Below are positions 18,519-50,389 of a DNA stretch of 64,000 bases, piece after piece. The DNA comes from Fundidesulfovibrio magnetotacticus. GTDB taxonomy: Bacteria > Desulfobacterota > Desulfovibrionia > Desulfovibrionales > Desulfovibrionaceae. The notes under the pieces were generated by a model. It made no database searches and was not told where the DNA came from. It was given only the letters and a program-made list of their open reading frames with translations. The stretch lies in the NCBI RefSeq assembly GCF_013019105.1, contig NZ_BLTE01000007.1, positions 1 to 64,000 on the forward strand. The letters run 5' to 3'. Position numbers and translations under genes: made by a program. Each line of letters begins with the position of its first letter. Position 1 is the stretch's first letter.

Positions 18519-19394
18519 ATGGAACATGTCGGGACGATCTCCCGAGGCGAACCGCCCCTTGCCCTGCAGGACGCGCTGCGGCGCTCCTGGCCTTGGCTCC
18601 TGGCGCTTCTCCTGATCCTGGGGTTGGTGTTCCAGGACATCGTGGCCGCCATGGTCCGTGTCTGGGCAGACGACGAGAACAATTCCCACGGGTTTCTCGT
18701 CCCCCTGGTAAGCCTTTACCTCATCGCCACCCGGCGGGACCGGCTGGCCACGGCCCAGGTGACCCCCTGCGCCTGGGGGCTGTGGATTTCGGTCCTGGGG
18801 GTGGTGATGCTCCTGGCCGGATGGGTCTCCACGGAGTTCTTCACCATGCGCGCATCCCTGGTGGTGATCCTCTACGGCACCGTGCTCTACTGGTACGGCT
18901 GGGAGGTCATGCGCCTGCTGGGCGGCCCCCTGCTCTACCTGCTGCTCATGATCCCCGTCCCGGCGGTGGTCTACGACGCCCTGGCCATGCCGCTCAGGGG
19001 GTTCGTCACGATGGTCTCGGTGTGGATCATGAAGAGCCTGGGCGTTCTCGTCCTGCGGGAGGGGAACGTGATGCTCTTTCCCAACATCACCCTGGAGGTC
19101 GTCAACGCCTGCAGCGGGCTGCGCTCCCTGACCTCCCTGCTCGCCCTGGCGGTGGCTTTCGCCCTGCTTTTCCAGAAGTCAGCCGTGACCCGCTGGATTC
19201 TGGCCCTGCTCGCCCTGCCCATCGCCGTGATCACCAACATCGGACGCGTGGTGGCGACAGGGGTGCTCTCGCAATATTTCGGAGCAGCGGCCGCCGAGGG
19301 CTTCTTCCATGAATTCGCTGGCATGGTGATCTTCATCACGGCGCTGGCGCTGCTCTTCGCCGCGCATCTCGTCCTGAGGAGGTTCGACTCGTGA
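18519..19394 (+). CDS. xrtA: Exosortase (XrtA/EpsH type)
   Basis: 291 aa polytopic membrane protein with about eight helices. The three exosortase signature sites are in order: Cys in VVNACSGLRSL (about 198), Arg in VITNIGRVVAT (about 243) and His in FFHEFAGM (about 266). Exosortases are membrane cysteine transpeptidase-like enzymes that recognise PEP-CTERM tails; three substrates are encoded in this window. The length is short because the EpsI domain, fused in some systems, is a separate overlapping gene. Confidence 0.93.
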   Translation: MEHVGTISRGEPPLALQDALRRSWPWLLALLLILGLVFQDIVAAMVRVWADDENNSHGFLVPLVSLYLIATRRDRLATAQVTPCAWGLWISVLGVVMLLAGWVSTEFFTMRASLVVILYGTVLYWYGWEVMRLLGGPLLYLLLMIPVPAVVYDALAMPLRGFVTMVSVWIMKSLGVLVLREGNVMLFPNITLEVVNACSGLRSLTSLLALAVAFALLFQKSAVTRWILALLALPIAVITNIGRVVATGVLSQYFGAAAAEGFFHEFAGMVIFITALALLFAAHLVLRRFDS

Positions 19395-40656: not shown

Positions 40657-40672
40657 TGGCATTACACTTGCT
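40657..40672 (+). promoter_or_regulatory. Sigma54 (-24/-12) promoter of PEP-CTERM gene 2
   Basis: TGGCAT-N5-TTGCT is an essentially perfect match to the sigma54 consensus (TGGCAY, five bases, TTGCW). The start codon is at 40701, giving a leader of about 18 nt that is mostly ribosome-binding site. Confidence 0.85.
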
Positions 40673-41673: not shown

Positions 41674-42933
41674 TTGCGCATCCTCTGCATCCCATACTCC
41701 CACACCTTTTCGCACCTGGCCCGGCCACTGGCCGTGGCCCTGGAACTGCGCCGCCGGGGGCACGAGGTGCACTTCGCTGGGGAAAGCCCCAAGCTGCGAC
41801 ACGTGTCCGAGGCAGGATTCCAGGCCCACCCCCTGTTCGAGCCCGATCCCAAGGCTCTTTTCGACCGCATCCGGGAAGGAACGCTGCGCTTCGTCACCAC
41901 CAAAGAATTGAACCGGATGATCGAGGCGGACCTTGAACTGGCCGGCCGCCTGCGTCCGGACGTGGTCCTCACCGACGGGCGCTTTTCAGCGGCCATTTCC
42001 ATGCAACTGGGCGGACACAGGCATGCCGCCATCGTGAACGTTTCATCCTGCGAATACCGGGCGCTCCCCTATGTTCCCTTGTTCGAGGGGGTTCCGGAGC
42101 GTCTTGCGCCGCAGGGCTCCCTGGTCCGGCGCGTCCTGAACCGGGTGAACTTGGCCGTGGAGATGACGGTGTTCGACACGGCCATGGGCGACTTCTCAAG
42201 GCTTTCCAGACGACACTCGCTGCGCAAGAGAGTCACGGCCACCAACTGCCTGACCGGGGCAGACATGACGCTGCTGGCCGACATCCCAGAATATTTCCCC
42301 ACACGCACCCTCCCGGCCGACACCCGCTACGTCGGCCCCCTGGGTTGGGAACTCCCCCAGGGCCGACCCGACTGGTGGCCCCTGCCCAGGCGCGACGGCC
42401 CCATGATCTACATGACCATGGGCACCACGGGTATTCCGGAATTCTTTCAGCGCGTGACGGACGTTTTCGAGGCGGAGGGATGGAACGCGGTGATCACCAC
42501 GGGCGGACAGACCCGGGATGTGGCCTCGCCAAGCCGCTTCATCCGGATCGAGGAATTCGTTGATGGGGAGTTGGTCATCGTGGAGAGCGACGTGGTGGTC
42601 TGCCACGGGGGCAACGGAAGCGTCTACCAGGCCCTGCGCCTGGGCAAGCCCATCGTGGGCATTCCCACCATCCCGGACCAGAAGTTCAACATGCGCCGCG
42701 TCCAGGCCCTGGGGGCGGGGCTCACCGTAACGCCGGAGGCCTTCCTGCGCTCCCCCGCGTCCCTCAAACAGGCCGTGGAGCGCGTCCTGGAGGATGCGGC
42801 GTACACCTCCGCGGCGCGACGCCTGGGGCAGATCATCCAGACCCGCGACGCCCCTCGCGCATGTGCCGAGGCCTTAGAGTCCCTGGGGGCTGGGGGACCG
42901 CCCCCACTGCGCGCCTGGCAGACCGTTAAATAA
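41674..42933 (+). CDS. GT1-like glycosyltransferase (MGT/UGT type)
   Basis: 419 aa from a TTG start at 41674, supported by GGAGG 5 nt upstream and by the family start RILCIPYSHTFSHLARPLAVALELRRRGHEV directly after it. The C-terminal donor site has IYMTMGTTG and VVCHGGNGSVYQALRLGKPIVGIP, the HGGxG-x-xxEAL-type signature of UGT-like enzymes. Such enzymes glycosylate lipids or small molecules more often than EPS repeats. The gene begins right after a strong terminator, so it depends on read-through or on a promoter I cannot see. Confidence 0.87.
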   Translation: MRILCIPYSHTFSHLARPLAVALELRRRGHEVHFAGESPKLRHVSEAGFQAHPLFEPDPKALFDRIREGTLRFVTTKELNRMIEADLELAGRLRPDVVLTDGRFSAAISMQLGGHRHAAIVNVSSCEYRALPYVPLFEGVPERLAPQGSLVRRVLNRVNLAVEMTVFDTAMGDFSRLSRRHSLRKRVTATNCLTGADMTLLADIPEYFPTRTLPADTRYVGPLGWELPQGRPDWWPLPRRDGPMIYMTMGTTGIPEFFQRVTDVFEAEGWNAVITTGGQTRDVASPSRFIRIEEFVDGELVIVESDVVVCHGGNGSVYQALRLGKPIVGIPTIPDQKFNMRRVQALGAGLTVTPEAFLRSPASLKQAVERVLEDAAYTSAARRLGQIIQTRDAPRACAEALESLGAGGPPPLRAWQTVK

Positions 42934-42943
42934 GTCGATTCTT

Positions 42944-43069
42944 GCAGCCTGCTCAAACAACTCGCTGGCAAGGCGCGGGGAAAAAGCCAAGCCCGAAGCG
43001 TATTTCCCATACGTGAGGGTTTGGCTTTTCCCCTGCAACGCAGCCAGCGAAGATTTTTCAAGAGGCTGC
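42944..43069. repeat. 126-bp long inverted repeat between convergent genes
   Basis: The two halves pair almost end to end: an outer GCAGCCT/AGGCTGC, an arm CGCTGGC/GCCAGCG, and an inner arm GGGGAAAAAGCCAAGCCC (42978-42995) facing GGGTTTGGCTTTTCCCC (43017-43033). A short loop around 43000-43012 separates them. It can act as a bidirectional terminator for the GT1 gene and the opposing ThiF gene, but it is longer than needed and may be a repetitive extragenic or MITE-like element. Confidence 0.75.
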
Positions 43070-45084
43070 TAGGGCTCGCGCAGTCTTCTGGGGGTGCCTT
43101 GGCTGATGGGCCGCGCATGCCCTGCCCGGAAGAGCATCACCGGCCAGCAGGCAGCTCCGAGCTCCGGAAAGAGCTTCTCGAACCCTTGCCAAACCTTTTC
43201 CAGGAGGGTCCGGTGCGCCTTACTGAAGGCATCCGGACCCTCCAGACGCCAGCGCAGCCAGAAGAGGGTGATGGCCGTCATGGGCTGAAGAGCAAGGCCC
43301 AGGCGGGTGGCCATGAGCCAGACGCGCTCCATCCCCATGCCGCCCTTCAGGAACCCCTCCACGTCGGCCTGCTCCGCGCACAAAAGCCCCGCGAGAGGGC
43401 TCGACAGCATGCCGAGGCGCGAATGCAGCGCAACCAGCCTGCCGAGACCTACGGTGTTGGCGACACGCATGGCCCACCAGGGACGCGTCAACCGCAGGAA
43501 GGCCTCGCCCGCCGCGCCGGCATGGAGGTTCTTGAGCGGCAGGCCGTCGTCATGCCCGGCCCCGTCGGGAGGTGTGAAGCGGGTCATGGAGGTGAAGTGC
43601 TCGTGCAGGTCGCGACGCTCCACCCGGATGCGGTCCGCAAGATAGACAAGACCAGCAAGCTCCCGGAGTCTCTTGGGATCATGCACGACGATCAGGCGGG
43701 AGGGCTCCGCCGACTCCACGAGACGCTTAACGCTGTAGGAGTCCACGGAGCGTCGGAAATACGGACGTCGATTGGTGCAGCGCGTCCAAACCGTTTCGCT
43801 AAGCACATCAGGGACAGCAACTGAGGGCTCAAGACGTATTTCCGCCATGCAATCCCTGTCGGCAGGATCGGGCAAGAGCTCAAACAAGGCCCTGAGGCCT
43901 GTATCCGGGGCTGAGCTAACCACATTCTGGACGGCTGCGCCACAGGCTATGACGGACGCCAACTGCCGGAAGTTGAAGAAACTACCGTCGCGGGATGGAT
44001 CGAGCCGGATGCTCAGGCCATTCTCCGTACGTTGGATGCGCCACGGCTGGCAGTTGTCGCCGGAGGGCGCCTGGCGAGCCGCCTGCTCCAGCCAGCCCAG
44101 TTGGTCGGGAGTCGGAGCCTGGCCCGCCGTGACGCCGACCGGTGTGGAGGGCACGCCGCGCGTCGCCTCGGACATGCCTGCCAGGAGAACGTTACGGACG
44201 TACCAAAGCTTGAGACGCTGGCTTGCCGAGGCGTTGCCCCGGCGCGGACGGGACCATTTGGACCGGCCCGTGGCAAGATCAACCTGCAGCGACCATGGGG
44301 CAGTTTTGAGCCCGGGACGCCCCCCTAGGAGCCGTACCGTTTCCGTGGCTGCCAAGGCTGCGCAGAGGAGGCAGGCAACCGCAAGCGACGGGCCCCGCCC
44401 CCTGGCCAGATCGACCTTCGCCGGATCGATCTGCCCCAGATGCAGCCCGGAAGGCGCCAGCCCGACCGCGAAGCGCAGCAGGCGTTCGCGCTCGGAAAGC
44501 CCCGGTCGGTTGTCGAAGTAGTCATCGAAGGTCATGGAGTCCGGAGCGAAGACCAGAAGCGACGCAGTATAACCCAGGGGGGCGGCCGTAACAACCGGGA
44601 TGCCCATTTCACGCGCCCTGTTGAAGAGCATCCTGCGGATGTTGAAGGCGCTGAAGTCCAGACCGTCCACGACAACGTTCACACCGGAGAGGAATTCGTC
44701 CAGATTGTCCGGGGTCAGCCCGTCGTGAAACGATGTCAGCGACGCACGGGGGTTGATCTGACGGATCTCCTCGACCATGGAGGACAGCTTGCTTTCGCCC
44801 AGATGGCGCACCGTGGCCCCGAATTGGCGGTTGAAATTCGCCAGTTCGTAGGCGTCCGGATCGGCCAAGTGAAAGCTCCCCACGCCAAGTCTGGCCAGAG
44901 TCATGCAGTGAAGCCCGCCGACGCCCCCCAGGCCGGGCACGGCCACTCGTGACAGGAAAAGTTTCTCCTGCTCCTGCGGGGTGAGAATGCCCAGGTTGCG
45001 GGAGAAGGCCGCCTCCATGAAAGCCCGGGCCTCGACGTCGAACAGTGACGACGCGACGGGGGGATCCTGTCCTTTGGTGGTCAT
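43069..45084 (-). CDS. ThiF (E1-like)/nitroreductase fusion protein
   Basis: 671 aa from the ATG at 45084, which overlaps the upstream stop (ATGA); an in-frame start at 45138 would add 18 residues. Residues about 30-300 are ThiF/E1-like: nucleotide loop VAVPGLGGVGG (about 47-57), DPDAYELANFNRQF with the family's Asp and NRQ, and VVDGLDFSAFNIR. I see no CxxC zinc pair. Residues about 330-670 are nitroreductase-like, opening with the FMN-site signature ARQAPSGDNCQPWRI. Fusions of this type (for example the mycobacterial Rv1355c family) have no settled function. By family chemistry the first half could adenylate a carboxylate and the second do flavin-dependent redox. It is translationally coupled to the N-acyl amino acid synthase. 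Confidence 0.85.
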   Translation of the reverse strand: MTTKGQDPPVASSLFDVEARAFMEAAFSRNLGILTPQEQEKLFLSRVAVPGLGGVGGLHCMTLARLGVGSFHLADPDAYELANFNRQFGATVRHLGESKLSSMVEEIRQINPRASLTSFHDGLTPDNLDEFLSGVNVVVDGLDFSAFNIRRMLFNRAREMGIPVVTAAPLGYTASLLVFAPDSMTFDDYFDNRPGLSERERLLRFAVGLAPSGLHLGQIDPAKVDLARGRGPSLAVACLLCAALAATETVRLLGGRPGLKTAPWSLQVDLATGRSKWSRPRRGNASASQRLKLWYVRNVLLAGMSEATRGVPSTPVGVTAGQAPTPDQLGWLEQAARQAPSGDNCQPWRIQRTENGLSIRLDPSRDGSFFNFRQLASVIACGAAVQNVVSSAPDTGLRALFELLPDPADRDCMAEIRLEPSVAVPDVLSETVWTRCTNRRPYFRRSVDSYSVKRLVESAEPSRLIVVHDPKRLRELAGLVYLADRIRVERRDLHEHFTSMTRFTPPDGAGHDDGLPLKNLHAGAAGEAFLRLTRPWWAMRVANTVGLGRLVALHSRLGMLSSPLAGLLCAEQADVEGFLKGGMGMERVWLMATRLGLALQPMTAITLFWLRWRLEGPDAFSKAHRTLLEKVWQGFEKLFPELGAACWPVMLFRAGHARPISQGTPRRLREP

Positions 45085-46022
45085 GATACAGGAGGGGGCG
45101 TTTGTGAGATGACGCAGCCGTATGTTTGCTTCAGCCATGCCAGTTGCCCAGGCGACAGCGCGTGGAGAACAAACGGATTTGAATGCAAGAGATGACGCAT
45201 TATGTCGTTGTCCAGAGAGTAATCTTTTTCAGAACTTTCGCCATCAACTTCATGACCTCCTGGACGCGCGTTGACCTTTACGAAGAATGCGTGAAGGTTC
45301 GTATCAAAGTCATTGTCATGATAGGCTTTGAAAAGTGCAGATTCGATATCGCGCATGTCGGCGCGAAGTGCGACAGCCGGAGCGTCCACCTTTCCGTAAT
45401 GCTTCGCCTCTCCAAATTCCTCAAACAGGAAAATTGACTTGTAGAATCTTACGTGCTTCGGGTTGACCATGATGCAGAGATCGTCAGCCCCCGTGGATAA
45501 GGCATAGGTGAAAATTGCCTTGGCCAGAAAGACGACAATGTTTTGCCACCGCCTGTGCGGTGATGTTGCCAAGGACCCGACCTCTATGATTTTACGACCC
45601 TGTGCACGAAGCGAGTCAAGTTCATCTTTGTAAAGCTCATCCATTGGAAGACCAAACTGCGGAGTATCTGGTATGTAGCTCATGGTCGATATGACCGTCA
45701 GATATGTCTTGAATACAAACACACATGTTTTCGGAAGGAGATGGTGGATGCCAAAGTGCATCCCGGACGTCAATGGAGACCGCAGGTAGCCTGAAGCGAC
45801 ATAGACATCATGGAGCACCCCGAAGGCCTGGGAATATTCCTCCATGGTCTCGGCGATCTTGATGCTCGGCCGATCGAGCGATTCAAGCTTGGCGTCGAGC
45901 AATGCGGAACGGCGGATACGTATGGTACGGCGACGATCCGCTCCAGAGGTGGAGCCGTCGTCCTGGGCGATTGGCGGAGGCAGTGGCGAGCCCGATGAGT
46001 TTGACAATGAAATATGTTGCAT
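45081..46022 (-). CDS. FeeM-type N-acyl amino acid synthase (PEP-CTERM/exosortase-associated acyltransferase)
   Basis: 313 aa from the ATG at 46022 (GGGAG 6 nt upstream); a GTG at 46049 is in frame but lacks a good site. After a Ser/Pro-rich N-terminus comes a GNAT-fold acyltransferase: IAETMEEYSQAFGVLHDVYV, LPKTCVFVFKTYLTVISTMSYIPD, IIEVGSLATSPHRR and DLCIMVNPKHVRFYKSIFLFEEFGE. These match the FeeM/NasP family, which uses acyl-ACP to N-acylate an amino acid and is known to be linked with PEP-CTERM/exosortase genomes. The gene is 60 bp after the sigma54 regulator. Amino-acid and chain-length preference cannot be read from sequence. Confidence 0.86.
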   Translation of the reverse strand: MQHISLSNSSGSPLPPPIAQDDGSTSGADRRRTIRIRRSALLDAKLESLDRPSIKIAETMEEYSQAFGVLHDVYVASGYLRSPLTSGMHFGIHHLLPKTCVFVFKTYLTVISTMSYIPDTPQFGLPMDELYKDELDSLRAQGRKIIEVGSLATSPHRRWQNIVVFLAKAIFTYALSTGADDLCIMVNPKHVRFYKSIFLFEEFGEAKHYGKVDAPAVALRADMRDIESALFKAYHDNDFDTNLHAFFVKVNARPGGHEVDGESSEKDYSLDNDIMRHLLHSNPFVLHALSPGQLAWLKQTYGCVISQTPPPVS

Positions 46023-46082
46023 GCAATGCTCCCAGGCAGAATGGGTCACTCATGCAAATTGCTTACCAGAAGTTGTTCAAAT

Positions 46083-47504
46083 TCAGTGCGCCTCACTCTT
46101 CGTCAGATTGTATCTCTTATAAAATTCATAAAGTCTGGCCCTGGAGAGGTTGGTGATCTTCATGGCCTCCGCCAGATTGCCGCCGCTGAGTTCATACACT
46201 TCCTTGAAATAATGCTGCTCCATCGACTCCAGCACTTCGTTCCGGTATTTTTTGTACGTCGGCAACGACGACCTGGTAACCAACCCGCCTGTTATTCTCT
46301 TCAAGTCACCAGATGACTGCATGTCATTATTATGCAAAGAATGCTTTGCCACGCGAACACGAATGTAGTGAGGAATATGCTCAGGATATACAACAGGACT
46401 GAAATGAGCCAGCACCACAACAGAGTCGAGAACATTCTCCAACTCACGCACATTTCCTGGCCAATCGTGACATTTCATTGTCTCTAAAAAACAATCCGAG
46501 AATGACTTCTCTGAAATACGATTTTTCTTGCACGACTTTTTCAGAAGATGCTTGATCAACAGCGGAAGATCTTCCAGTCGACTTCTCAACGGCGGCAGAT
46601 TGACCTTGAGCGATTGGATTCTGTACAAAAGATCTGAACGGAAAAGGCCATCCTTAACCATCTGAGAAAGATCTTTGTTAGTCGCTGCAACGAGCCTGAA
46701 ATCACTCTCCACTTCGCGCTTTGCTCCTACAGGCCTGAACCTTCGCTCCTGGAGCACCCGGAGAAACTTTTTCTGCAATTCCAGGGGAAGCTCGGAGACC
46801 TCATCAAGAAAAAGCGTCCCCCCATGCGCTCGCATAACGAGACCCTCATTCTGCATGTCAGCCCCGGTGAAGGCCCCCTTGGAATAGCCGAACAGGATCG
46901 ATTCGACGAGGGTGTCAGGCAGCGAGGCGCAGTCGACCACGATGAGGCTCTTCGAGGAGCGCGTGCTGATGCCATGGATCGCGCGCGCGATGAGCTCCTT
47001 GCCAGTGCCCGTCTCCCCCTGGATGAGCACGGAAACATCACTGTGTCTGGCCTTTGCCACCGTATTGAGACAGTTGCGCATGAGCGTGCACTCGCCGACG
47101 ATGTTGAACCGTTCGCCGAGCTCGGCCCCGATGGGCTCGTCTTTGACCACAAGCTGGTCCAGACGCCCCAACAAGCTGGTCAGGAAACCCGTGGCTTCGT
47201 TGCGGGGGATATAATCCAGGGCCCCTTCGCGCAGGGAGAATTCCAACTCGGAAAAGTCGGGTTTGTCGACAACGACCAGAACCTTGGGGGGGGAACGGAA
47301 CTCACGGATCCGGTTGAAGAGCTGATCGACGGGGACACCGTCGTTTTTATAGTAGACAAGCAGGTCCGTTTTGGCTTCCTGCCCGTCCTCCACCAGATCG
47401 CTAGACCGCTTGGCGGAGCAGACGGAATGAGGTACCCCCTTGGAAATCTCTAAAATTTCGTTAAGGATATCACGTCCCTTTTCAAGAACAATAATATTGG
47501 CCAT
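46083..47504 (-). CDS. Sigma54-dependent activator with degenerate receiver domain
   Basis: 473 aa from the ATG at 47504. Residues 1-125 have receiver topology (ANIIVLEKGRDI; PPKVLVVVDKPDFSELEFSLREGALDYIPR), but the phospho-acceptor strand reads TDLLVYYKNDG, without Asp at the expected site, and the first acidic pair is missing. The AAA+ domain is intact: GETGTGKE, GAFTGA, GGTLFLDEVSELP, WPGNVRELEN. The C-terminal Fis-type helix-turn-helix is LSGGNLAEAMKITNLSRARLYEFYKR. It can thus drive sigma54 promoters but is probably not controlled by phosphorylation. It heads the synthase operon. Confidence 0.9.
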   Translation of the reverse strand: MANIIVLEKGRDILNEILEISKGVPHSVCSAKRSSDLVEDGQEAKTDLLVYYKNDGVPVDQLFNRIREFRSPPKVLVVVDKPDFSELEFSLREGALDYIPRNEATGFLTSLLGRLDQLVVKDEPIGAELGERFNIVGECTLMRNCLNTVAKARHSDVSVLIQGETGTGKELIARAIHGISTRSSKSLIVVDCASLPDTLVESILFGYSKGAFTGADMQNEGLVMRAHGGTLFLDEVSELPLELQKKFLRVLQERRFRPVGAKREVESDFRLVAATNKDLSQMVKDGLFRSDLLYRIQSLKVNLPPLRSRLEDLPLLIKHLLKKSCKKNRISEKSFSDCFLETMKCHDWPGNVRELENVLDSVVVLAHFSPVVYPEHIPHYIRVRVAKHSLHNNDMQSSGDLKRITGGLVTRSSLPTYKKYRNEVLESMEQHYFKEVYELSGGNLAEAMKITNLSRARLYEFYKRYNLTKSEAH

Positions 47505-47558
47505 TCTGCCCGCCACTCCAGACGCCTTCAGTATACAAAGGGGAACATGGTACGAACA

Positions 47559-47615
47559 GACGCCAAACGGCTAATGCAAACCAAGCATTGTTTAAGGGAG
47601 CCCCTTGTTGGCGTC
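47559..47615 (-). promoter_or_regulatory. Structured leader or operator upstream of the sigma54 activator
   Basis: GACGCCAA (47559-47566) and TTGGCGTC (47608-47615) form a perfect 8-bp outer stem. Inside are two hairpins: AATGC/GCATT (47573-47589, 7-nt loop) and AAGGG/CCCTT (47594-47606, 3-nt loop). The result is a three-way-junction shape about 55 nt upstream of the start codon. It matches no riboswitch class I recognise; it could be a leader RNA or a protein-binding inverted repeat. Confidence 0.4.
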
Positions 47616-47665
47616 AATACTCGTAACACGAAAATGCAGGGCGGGGAGGGGTGCCGTCTCGGGAT

Positions 47666-48193
47666 TCAAAAGCCGAAATGAACCTGAAGCGTGTTTGCCA
47701 ACACTGCCGGGAGCTTAACAAACGAAGCACCTACAGACACCGCAAGACTTGTTGTCACATGGACGGGCCTACACAACACCTTGAAAATATTCGTAAGTGA
47801 CGGCACACTAAAAATAACAACAAACGGTGTTCCACTACGCAGATTATCCACTATCACAGACGAGTCGCAGCTGATGACCATCCCGAGGCCACCAACAGAA
47901 ATGTCACGTATCTTCACGGCCTTATATTGTGTCTCATTGTGCGGCATAGAAATCTCCATCACTCCGTTTATCGATACATCAACACGCTTCTCCCTCCTTT
48001 TATCGAATCCGTTTTCATGGAAACGTGCATCGCTCGTGCAATTCAAGAATTTTGTCAAAACATCATCCAACAGTGCGTCCTGCGTTTCTCCAGCGAGACT
48101 GGCTTTTTCACGGAATCTGTCAGCCAAACCGACTGGAATATCAAAACAAACTGTTGTCGTGCCCCCCCTTGATACTGTCAATTGCTGATGCAT
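47666..48193 (-). CDS. PilZ domain protein with RHH-like N-terminus
   Basis: 175 aa from the ATG at 48193 (GAGAG 9 nt upstream); an ATG at 48226 is possible but has no ribosome site. Residues about 8-50 (TTVCFDIPVGLADRF ... ALLDDVLTKFL) follow the strand-helix-helix pattern of ribbon-helix-helix DNA-binding domains. The PilZ domain (about 62-170) has RREKR for RxxxR and RDISVGG for (D/N)xSxxG, both c-di-GMP contacts. It lies upstream of, and on the same strand as, the sigma54 activator, so it may be a c-di-GMP-responsive regulator of that unit. The PilZ call is firm; the RHH call is by pattern only. Confidence 0.82.
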   Translation of the reverse strand: MHQQLTVSRGGTTTVCFDIPVGLADRFREKASLAGETQDALLDDVLTKFLNCTSDARFHENGFDKRREKRVDVSINGVMEISMPHNETQYKAVKIRDISVGGLGMVISCDSSVIVDNLRSGTPFVVIFSVPSLTNIFKVLCRPVHVTTSLAVSVGASFVKLPAVLANTLQVHFGF

Positions 48194-48500
48194 CACTGTA
48201 TGCTCTCTTTCCTTGTCTGTTGTCATATTTCAAATACATTACAAAATATATGCCAAGACAGCCGTCCTCTCCAGGATTGGAAACTGCACTCTGGACGTGC
48301 CGAAACGGCCTTTTCGGATGAATCCAACGGGCAGAATGTAAACAAACGCAACACATGTCGGATGTTCTTCCAGAAGGGACCGGCACGGTGATGCGGGGCC
48401 GGGCATGCTATGGCCAGGACTTGGGACGCGCGGAGAGGTCAGGAGTGGATCGGCCTTGGGCTCCGCCAAGCCGGAGATCACGACAGGGAAACGCCGGGAA

Positions 48501-49280
48501 TTAGAAAACCGTCGCCCCGATCACGTGGACAACGTCCCGGAGGGGGTGGGCTTCGGGCCTGGGAGCATAGCTCCATTCCCAGCGCTCCTGGGGCGCGGGG
48601 GAAGCCACGCCGTGCAGAGGATCCGACATCATGGTCTCGTTGTCGGCAACCCCGAGCCACGCAAGCTCCGTGAGCAGACAGCGAACCCCCGGACGGCTTT
48701 CAAGCCAGTCGAGGTGGGCCTGCATGGCATTGCGCGCGAAAGCTTCCAACTCCCCTTCCGAATGGCGGCCGGCGGTCCAAAGGCGCTCCATGGGCAGCAG
48801 GGGAAGCCGTGCAAGAGCATTGGCGGAAATCGTGATGTCCGGGCTCACCCCGGGAAGCGGGTCGACGGGGACGAATCGGTTCGGGAGTCGCACCCCGGAT
48901 TTCAGGGACTCCAGCACTGCGGAAAGCGAGCCGGTAAGGTCCGCATGGAGAAGGCGCACGTTGCCAAGCCGCGCGGCCCTGCGCCGGACCTCCAGAGGAT
49001 GGGCGACATCGACGAGCACGACGTTGACGAACAAGCGGGAAAGCTCTTCCAGCGGAACATCGAGACACCACCCCGACCCCGCCACCACGGCGACGCCATG
49101 CCCGGCGGCCGATCGGGCGGACCGAAGGATAAAAGCGCGGCAGGCTTCGAGATGACCCCGCCAGGCCTCGGCGTTGCGCGTCCAGATTCCCCGGTAACGG
49201 GCGGCATCCCGCGCGTACCCCAGGGGTTTCGCTTGGTCGAGCACGGAGGCCGAAAGGGCCCAGTACCATTCTTGGAGCAT
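48501..49280 (-). CDS. Putative SAM-dependent methyltransferase-like protein
   Basis: 259 aa from the ATG at 49280; a TTG at 49328 is in frame. A Rossmann-like core is visible: GVAVVAGSGWCLDVPLEEL resembles motif I of class I methyltransferases, VNVVLVDVAHP supplies the acidic end of strand 2, and NVRLLHADL resembles the motif-II region. DITISANALARLPLLP could be the strand-4 segment. I cannot name a substrate. No signal peptide or membrane helix is seen. It stands alone downstream of PEP-CTERM gene 3 on the same strand, with a terminator between. Confidence 0.55.
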   Translation of the reverse strand: MLQEWYWALSASVLDQAKPLGYARDAARYRGIWTRNAEAWRGHLEACRAFILRSARSAAGHGVAVVAGSGWCLDVPLEELSRLFVNVVLVDVAHPLEVRRRAARLGNVRLLHADLTGSLSAVLESLKSGVRLPNRFVPVDPLPGVSPDITISANALARLPLLPMERLWTAGRHSEGELEAFARNAMQAHLDWLESRPGVRCLLTELAWLGVADNETMMSDPLHGVASPAPQERWEWSYAPRPEAHPLRDVVHVIGATVF

Positions 49281-49466: not shown

Positions 49467-50348
49467 TTACACTTCTTCCTTACTGCGGGCCCGCCTGCGC
49501 AGGAAGGAGATTCCCAGCGCGCCGGCGCCCATAAGGAGCATGGAGGCGGGTTCCGGGTTGGGAATGGGCGCCCGCTCGTAGAAGACGTCGTTGGCGCAGC
49601 TCACCGCGAAGCCTACAGTCATGGAATGATGACCTTGCAGCTCGATGCCGCCGCCGGAAAGGGTCCAGGTGGCCCAGAAGTCGGTGCTGGTCGTATTCAC
49701 AGCCACGCTGGTGGGCCAGGTGACCGTCGCGGTGATGCCGGTGGGGTCGCCGGGATCTTTGGCCTGCACGGGGTGGTTCTTGCGCCAGTCCCAGCCGCCG
49801 AGGTTGTATTCGTAGACCGTGGACATGTTGTAGTTGGCGGCCCACGTCGCCGTGTTGCCATACTCCAGCCCCGCACCGTCGGCTTTGTACACCGTCCACT
49901 GCGAGTCGACCACATCGTTCTTCACCGCGTCCATGGCCGCCTTTTGCTGAGCCGACGACGCTGTCGCCGTTCCGCCCGGGCGAACGAGCGAATCGGGGTT
50001 GTGGATGATGTAGTCCCAGTCCGTGTCGTTGTCGATGTTGATGAAGATGTCTCCGGGCTTCAACTTGTCGGAGTTCCACGAACTGCGCGACTGCTGCGTC
50101 GGAAGGAAGAAGTCGACGGAGACAGCGGTTAGGTGCGTTCCGTTGAAAGTGAATCCAATCTGTTTGATGTCCGGAATGCCTATGACATCCCCGGGGATGG
50201 CCCCGTATTTGGTCCCGTATGTCGTGACATAGGTCGAGGAGTTGTATCCGTCCCAGTTCAGGTTTGTGTCCTGGGTATACTCAGGAGCCGCCAGGGCGGA
50301 CCCGCTGAAGAAGACTGACAACGCCAAGATCAGTGTGAACGGCTTCAT
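49467..50348 (-). CDS. PEP-CTERM sorting domain protein 3
   Basis: 293 aa; AAAGGAG lies 7 nt before the ATG. Signal peptide 1-20 (MKPFTLILALSVFFSGSALA). The body has aromatic/Gly-rich beta segments (FINIDNDTDWDYIIHNPDSL, WTLSGGG, TVGFAVSCANDVFYE) resembling other PEP-CTERM surface proteins but no known enzyme. The C-terminal signal is NPEPASMLLMGAG, a hydrophobic stretch and FLRRRARSKEEV. It is predicted to be exported and processed by the exosortase. A sigma54 promoter lies upstream and a terminator downstream. Confidence 0.92.
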   Translation of the reverse strand: MKPFTLILALSVFFSGSALAAPEYTQDTNLNWDGYNSSTYVTTYGTKYGAIPGDVIGIPDIKQIGFTFNGTHLTAVSVDFFLPTQQSRSSWNSDKLKPGDIFINIDNDTDWDYIIHNPDSLVRPGGTATASSAQQKAAMDAVKNDVVDSQWTVYKADGAGLEYGNTATWAANYNMSTVYEYNLGGWDWRKNHPVQAKDPGDPTGITATVTWPTSVAVNTTSTDFWATWTLSGGGIELQGHHSMTVGFAVSCANDVFYERAPIPNPEPASMLLMGAGALGISFLRRRARSKEEV

Positions 50349-50373: not shown

Positions 50374-50389
50374 AGCATGAATCGTGCCA
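50374..50389 (-). promoter_or_regulatory. Sigma54 (-24/-12) promoter of PEP-CTERM gene 3
   Basis: On the minus strand TGGCAC-N5-ATGCT matches the consensus except for one -12 base. The distance from the element to the start codon (25 bp) nearly equals that of PEP-CTERM gene 2 (28 bp). I did not find the shared activator box at the expected upstream position. Confidence 0.7.

Follow-up and report, generated by a model that had tools for sequence, protein, structure and literature searches.

N-acyl oxazolones (azlactones) are made by a set of domains that has been characterised in three systems, OxzAB, TyzACB and TrzAS (PMC10404671, PMC12856293). In these systems an aromatic amino acid is N-acylated by an acyltransferase, a ThiF protein cyclises the product with ATP and a flavin-dependent oxidase (FDO) desaturates it with O2 (PMC10404671, PMC12856293). 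OxzAB comes from Pseudoalteromonas rubra (de Rond et al. 2021, cited here after PMC10404671 and PMC12856293), TyzACB of M. tuberculosis corresponds to Rv2336, Rv2338c and Rv2337c and its genes adjoin mmpL9 (PMC10404671), and TrzAS corresponds to Rv1356c-Rv1355c, is flanked by the cyclic di-GMP (c-di-GMP) turnover genes rv1354c and rv1357c, and carries out cyclisation obligately before desaturation (PMC12856293). The physiological role of oxazolones was called a major unresolved question by the authors of the mycobacterial work (PMC12856293). In this work, we analysed a four-gene locus of Fundidesulfovibrio magnetotacticus, encoding a PilZ protein, a sigma54 activator, a FeeM-type N-acyl amino acid synthase and a ThiF-nitroreductase fusion, in a window of 64,000 nucleotides (contig NZ_BLTE01000007.1, positions 1 to 64,000).

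All four genes, first listed in a sequence-only reading of this DNA, were found as described on the minus strand of the window, with a gap of 60 bp between the activator gene and feeM and an overlap of 4 bp (ATGA) between feeM and the fusion gene (Table 1). From their domains and residues, the enzymes very likely belong to the class of N-acyl oxazolone synthases, and we consider it probable that the locus as a whole is of the OxzAB type, controlled by c-di-GMP and sigma54 and tied to an exosortase/exopolysaccharide (EPS) cluster. The sequence-only reading had proposed a new pathway in which the carboxylate of an N-acyl amino acid is activated and the product then cyclised or oxidised; this chemistry was right in kind and matches that published for OxzAB, TyzACB and TrzAS. 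The enzymology being known from these systems, the pathway is not a new one: the same domains form the characterised synthases (PMC10404671, PMC12856293), and NCBIfam holds a single-chain model of them, PRK14852. What is new is the wiring, i.e. that oxazolone synthesis is repeatedly and specifically coupled with the reception of c-di-GMP, with sigma54 transcription and with an exosortase matrix system.

Domain assignments were clear for both enzymes. The synthase matched Pfam FeeM (E=6e-46; PF21926, 156.6 bits for a cut-off of 27) and its nearest solved structure was FeeM itself (2g0b, E=1.1e-16). The ThiF half of the fusion (Pfam, E=2.5e-43) was nearest to TcdA (E=2.1e-16), and the other half matched Pfam Nitroreductase over the gathering score (E=1.9e-6) and was nearest to Acg (2ymv, E=8.9e-8), with the Acg family and Rv1355c family models matching as well. 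TcdA prepares an N-carbamoyl amino acid for ring closure by activating its carboxylate, the same type of reaction as that proposed for the fusion. NCBIfam matches comprised PRK14851, PRK14852 and PRK07877 (the Rv1355c family); PRK14852 is a 989-position model that joins FeeM, ThiF and nitroreductase in one chain, the window FeeM aligning to its positions 5-276 and the fusion to the following part.

Residue conservation was assessed on 19 aligned sequences, the homologues being 42-63% identical to the window fusion. Invariant in 19/19 were the E1 residues R47 (the arginine finger of the ThiF half), the GxGGxG loop (G69/G71-G72/G74), D93, R104, K117, D158 and D161; the ATP-binding residues, whose absence the sequence-only reading had named as fatal to its proposal, are intact in the 19 homologues. 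The oxidase half likewise kept APSGDNxQPW, D502-R503-x-R505 (DRxR) and Q618-P619 (QP) in 19/19. Judging from motifs and nearly equal spacing, R503/R505 and Q618 would correspond to the functionally tested R540 and Q651 of TrzS, and the ThiF half appears to hold an Asp equivalent to TrzS D217.

In the pathway that we propose, FeeM would attach a fatty acyl chain to the nitrogen of an amino acid, probably an aromatic one as in its characterised homologues; the ThiF half would adenylate the free carboxylate, attack by the amide oxygen would close the oxazol-5-one ring, and the Acg-like flavin oxidase half would introduce the alpha,beta double bond. The neighbouring activator, with a receiver that apparently cannot be phosphorylated, would drive expression from a sigma54-type promoter before feeM, and the PilZ protein, with its predicted ribbon-helix-helix (RHH) DNA-binding N-terminus, would supply the c-di-GMP input. 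Genes, residues, conserved linkages and the promoter-like element are what the analysis observed; the identity of the product, the direction of c-di-GMP control, the target of the PilZ protein and the electron acceptor are our inferences.

Distribution was surveyed in 59 genomes, i.e. the species' own and its relatives, so that counts are not independent of one another. The fusion occurred in 13/59, and all 13 also possessed FeeM (Fisher p=1.4e-10) and an exosortase (p=1.3e-6 by genome, 1.1e-3 by genus), which upheld both the pairing of synthase with fusion and the link to exosortase genomes put forward earlier. The distance from fusion to exosortase was 12-52 kb in the 10/10 genomes with both on one contig, and a survey widened to 247 genomes spread over the phylum found a match in only 14. 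FeeM, the fusion and the exosortase are present in one copy each in the genome studied here, the remaining ThiF matches being weak paralogues. The locus had been placed beside an exosortase locus; it does border an EPS/exosortase/PEP-CTERM cluster filling ~13.6-41.6 kb of the window, the exosortase itself being 24 kb off. This protein passed the generic exosortase model (209.6 vs 105.6 bits) and missed the XrtA cut-off (TIGR03109, 192.2 vs 208 bits), and was therefore called plain 'exosortase'.

Gene order was kept in relatives, so the lack of conservation that the sequence-only reading had set against itself did not appear. Two congeners (G005 and G006) showed the unchanged order methyltransferase-like/PilZ/activator/FeeM/fusion, and a third (G002) kept the first four genes, with a FAD_binding_4 oxidase in the place of the fusion; PilZ, FeeM and fusion were contiguous in another genus (G026), the spacing between PilZ and feeM being 15-37 bp in G026 and G359. 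The methyltransferase-like gene is a fifth, upstream member of the conserved block. Its product was 47-49% identical to the congener versions; given the low confidence of its AlphaFold2 model (60.6) and Foldseek matches, mostly to SAM (S-adenosylmethionine) methyltransferases, with E above 0.003, its identity as a methyltransferase is only a hint. FeeM genes lacking a ThiF-nitroreductase fusion adjoined a FAD_binding_4 (VAO-type) oxidase at L082:7546-10937 (G002) and L087:8969-11653 (G015), which suggests a swapped tailoring of N-acyl amino acids. At L035 (G050) the ThiF and nitroreductase halves lay in separate overlapping frames, so that the gene is either frameshifted or split.

Elsewhere in the order, other families had feeM (often in two copies) and the fusion in a block with LolA-like, AMIN/DUF1302 and MMPL genes (L026-L029, L031, L032, L034), an apparent lipid-export module that resembles an RND export route. 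A LolA/DUF1302/MMPL module with feeM and without the fusion was observed in G038 (L088). The MMPL exporter of the sister families had no close relative in the genome of F. magnetotacticus (best 1.5e-5); the lipid may therefore stay cell-associated or take another route there.

The PilZ domain fell slightly under the Pfam gathering score (E=3.5e-4); the barrel of its AlphaFold2 model matched the PilZ domains of YcgR, Alg44 and BcsA with bound c-di-GMP (Foldseek, E from 1.9e-6), and the motif residues R77, R81, S110 and G113 (RxxxR, (D/N)xSxxG) were invariant in 10 proteins. A profile of four PilZ proteins, searched against 149 genomes of the family, retrieved five further close relatives in three genera (G002, G363, G393, G390, G359; E up to 1.5e-30), all five less than 6 kb from feeM and four with the fusion adjoining too. 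A PilZ relative (6e-11) that keeps RxxxR and DxSxxG was also identified in a divergent 'hypothetical protein' encoded beside a 989-aa synthase on a plasmid of Nitratidesulfovibrio vulgaris. Moreover, a GGDEF gene (mostly CBS-PAS-GGDEF) stood divergent to PilZ at 24-257 bp in three genomes of genus g21 and two of genus g5, against a background of one GGDEF gene every 84-171 kb among the genomes counted, and some other families had GGDEF or GGDEF-EAL genes less than 10 kb away. The earlier proposal of a c-di-GMP link is borne out by these neighbourhoods, and we regard control of the pathway by c-di-GMP, in some form, as likely. At L083:6802-7584, L033:14458-15309, L086:10634-11485 and L085:11962-12741 the full-length cyclase was adjoined by a second GGDEF protein, short and divergent, which may be a degenerate sensor of c-di-GMP.

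The PilZ protein had also been credited with an RHH-like N-terminus. Barrel model and motifs sustain the PilZ part; the RHH part is weak by sequence and appears in the model as a beta-alpha-alpha unit. AlphaFold2, run with nine homologues, placed a strand (24-29) and two helices (32-45 and 49-65) ahead of the barrel, and RHH proteins such as Arc and AvtR were among the top PDB profile matches, with E values of 0.15-0.9. The window protein itself had no Pfam RHH match, and Foldseek gave no direct support for RHH alone because PilZ matches dominate. We consider an RHH domain likely for this N-terminus, and that the protein acts as a DNA-binding transcription factor is conceivable at a little short of even chances. 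A TGGCATG-like element followed by TTGA/TTGT, kept in four genomes, lies directly before PilZ (window 48240-48260, minus strand; L024, L025, L082) and is without the GC that standard sigma54 promoters have at -12.

The activator matched Pfam Sigma54_activat (E=9e-64) with Walker A, Walker B and GAFTGA kept. The acidic residues of its receiver-like N-terminus are replaced in this genus and intact in the activator of G026; control independent of phosphorylation is therefore likely in this genus. Identity with PrsR, the PEP-CTERM-box response regulator (TIGR02915), was rejected (281 vs 502.6 bits; phosphoacceptor receiver not intact). A -24/-12 element lay within the gap between activator and feeM in 4/4 genomes of the genus checked, namely TGGTAAGCAATTTGCA in the window (scoring 10.9 of 18.8 bits) and TGGCATGNTTTTGGCT in the congeners G002, G005 and G006 (12.5 bits), and wherever the distance was measured the feeM ATG followed its end by 23-36 nt; this agrees with the sigma54 link suggested earlier. 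Scores come from an approximate weight matrix of the consensus; the chance expectation of at least 10.9 bits in a 60-nt gap was 0.009 per genome. Sites scoring above 11 showed no genome-wide excess over shuffled sequence, and weight was therefore given only to position and conservation. The locus is flanked by two PEP-CTERM genes that each have a strong sigma54-type site 25-29 nt ahead of them, one of these sites at 40657-40672 on the plus strand and the other listed in Table 1. No Rfam matches and no tRNAs were found within the window.

Table 1. Position of the genes and promoter-like elements of the locus and of its surroundings in the window
Feature	Position	Strand	Remark
ThiF-nitroreductase fusion (OxzB/TrzS-like cyclase and FDO)	43069..45084	-	likely start; longest open reading frame (ORF) starts at 45138
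Halves of the fusion	ThiF ~44209-45003; oxidase ~43078-44127	-	
FeeM-type N-acyl amino acid synthase (OxzA/TyzA/TrzA-like)	45081..46022	-	GGGAG ribosome site; longest ORF 45081-46049, GTG start at 46049
Sigma54-type -24/-12 element TGGTAAGCAATTTGCA	46053..46068	-	ends 30-31 nt before feeM ATG; located alike in three other genomes of the genus
Sigma54 enhancer-binding protein: degenerate receiver-like N-terminus, AAA+ with GAFTGA, Fis-like helix-turn-helix	46083..47504	-	
PilZ protein (RxxxR and DxSxxG motifs), predicted RHH N-terminus	47666..48193	-	AAGGAAAG ribosome site; longest ORF to 48226
Methyltransferase-like Rossmann protein, without Pfam family	48501..49280	-	upstream neighbour of PilZ, kept in genus
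PEP-CTERM protein	49467..50348	-	
Strongest sigma54-type site of the window, TGGCACGATTCATGCT	50374..50389	-	25 nt before PEP-CTERM gene
UGT/MGT-like glycosyltransferase	41674..42933	+	convergent neighbour; kept in one congener too (G006)
Exosortase domain	18612..19367	+	generic exosortase model passed; XrtA/XrtW cut-offs missed

Several observations weigh against an oxazolone locus under c-di-GMP and sigma54 control. The oxazolone is here a predicted product, and the fusion missed the cut-offs of its NCBIfam matches (PRK14851 740/1170, PRK14852 542/1337, PRK07877 240/476 bits), which are tight models that do not define a reaction. The characterised oxidase steps use O2, yet the genome carries dsrA; the host is therefore probably a sulfate reducer, and its dsr-bearing lineage probably anaerobic. 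Besides the relatedness of the genomes compared, the sigma54 site of the window is weaker than that of the congeners, no cyclase gene lies beside the window's own PilZ, and the RHH assignment meets with weak sequence similarity to NikA-like and CopG-type RHH families (Pfam, in homologues; NikA-like 0.0057, RHH_7 0.0063) and moderate model support (pLDDT, the per-residue model confidence, 71-77).

As to the product, the oxazolone might be a transient intermediate that is hydrolysed or opened, so that the pathway ends in a dehydroamino acid of the open-chain N-acyl kind, as known from stieleriacines and from thalassotalic and kyonggic acids, with the methyltransferase-like protein then possibly methylating it. 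The conservation of this protein within the genus and the methyltransferase of the Stieleria clusters (PMC12479983) speak for such an end product, which we nevertheless hold to be unlikely: what was detected for OxzAB, TyzACB and TrzAS were oxazolones, which acid work-up readily hydrolyses (PMC12856293), so that not seeing oxazolones elsewhere is weak evidence, and in the other genera examined the surroundings of the pathway held no relative of the methyltransferase-like gene. Reduction of the activated carboxylate to an aldehyde or alcohol, which the sequence-only reading had among its alternatives, or modification of a peptide as by the E1/nitroreductase pairs of pathways for ribosomally synthesised and post-translationally modified peptides, accords with general E1 and nitroreductase chemistry; it is highly improbable here, as neither a precursor peptide nor a leader-binding domain is evident, the oxidase half is an Acg-type FDO, a group whose characterised ThiF-linked members desaturate N-acyl amino acids (PMC10404671), and FeeM accompanies the fusion in 13/13 genomes and is fused to it in N. 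vulgaris.

Concerning the regulators, a window made of an EPS/PEP-CTERM cluster with PrsK/PrsR-like regulators, whose best sigma54 site precedes a PEP-CTERM gene, raises the possibility that PilZ and the sigma54 activator regulate that cluster in general, their genes standing beside the lipid genes by chance. The PilZ relatives found by sequence all lie near feeM, the exosortase being tens of kb off, PilZ is only 15-37 bp from feeM in G026 and G359, and G002, without the fusion, still keeps PilZ-activator-FeeM, all of which makes a chance association quite improbable.

Under the preferred reading, i.e. a regulated oxazolone synthase, we tentatively suggest a broader role, which we hold to be possible and somewhat doubtful: N-acyl oxazolones of Desulfovibrionaceae might be c-di-GMP-controlled matrix or surface signals, the RHH-PilZ factor and the phosphorylation-independent sigma54 activator turning on the exosortase/PEP-CTERM biofilm genes along with oxazolone synthesis; the tie to c-di-GMP would be ancient, or convergent with that of mycobacterial trzAS, and the oxidase would use an acceptor other than bulk O2 or work only at oxic interfaces. 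This offers a testable role, that of a lipid resembling acyl-homoserine lactones (AHL) and produced when cells change to life on a surface or in a matrix, and the wiring beside matrix-polysaccharide genes suggests a purpose for this poorly understood class of cyclic, AHL-like lipids. The association with c-di-GMP, shared with mycobacterial trzAS, is now seen in a distant phylum together with a c-di-GMP receptor. Also of value is the occurrence of the locus in a dsr-bearing lineage though the characterised oxidases use O2, which raises the question of the natural oxidant, and, among regulators that respond to c-di-GMP, the predicted RHH-PilZ architecture would be an unusual one.

Compared with known systems, the locus is most like OxzAB in having a separate acyltransferase gene adjoining a ThiF-nitroreductase fusion gene; it differs in being tied to genes for an exosortase, PilZ, a diguanylate cyclase and sigma54 control and in its dsr-bearing lineage, and its product is a predicted one. 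With TrzAS and TyzACB it shares acyltransferase, ThiF cyclase and FDO; c-di-GMP turnover genes also flank TrzAS, and mmpL9 adjoins tyz; linkage to PilZ, sigma54 or exosortase is not reported for them in PMC10404671 and PMC12856293, and the window fusion reaches about half of the Rv1355c model cut-off. Plasmids of N. vulgaris, a laboratory organism in which the plasmid copy is annotated, encode FeeM, ThiF and nitroreductase as one ThiF family protein of the PRK14852 architecture (989 aa on NC_008741.1), to which both window proteins align and are homologous throughout, and XrtA/PEP-CTERM genes and the PilZ relative adjoin it as well; it is a single polypeptide, whereas the window has two overlapping genes. 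The identity of 43-44% to proteins of these plasmids, taken with dsrA, points to Desulfovibrionales. TcdA, a tRNA threonylcarbamoyladenosine dehydratase, shares the E1-like domain and differs in its tRNA substrate and in lacking an oxidase domain. Finally, the RHH c-di-GMP receptor CdbA and the PilZ transcription factor MrkH would resemble the window PilZ protein in c-di-GMP-responsive DNA binding, which the latter may possess; it differs from both in joining a PilZ domain and a predicted RHH domain in a single chain.

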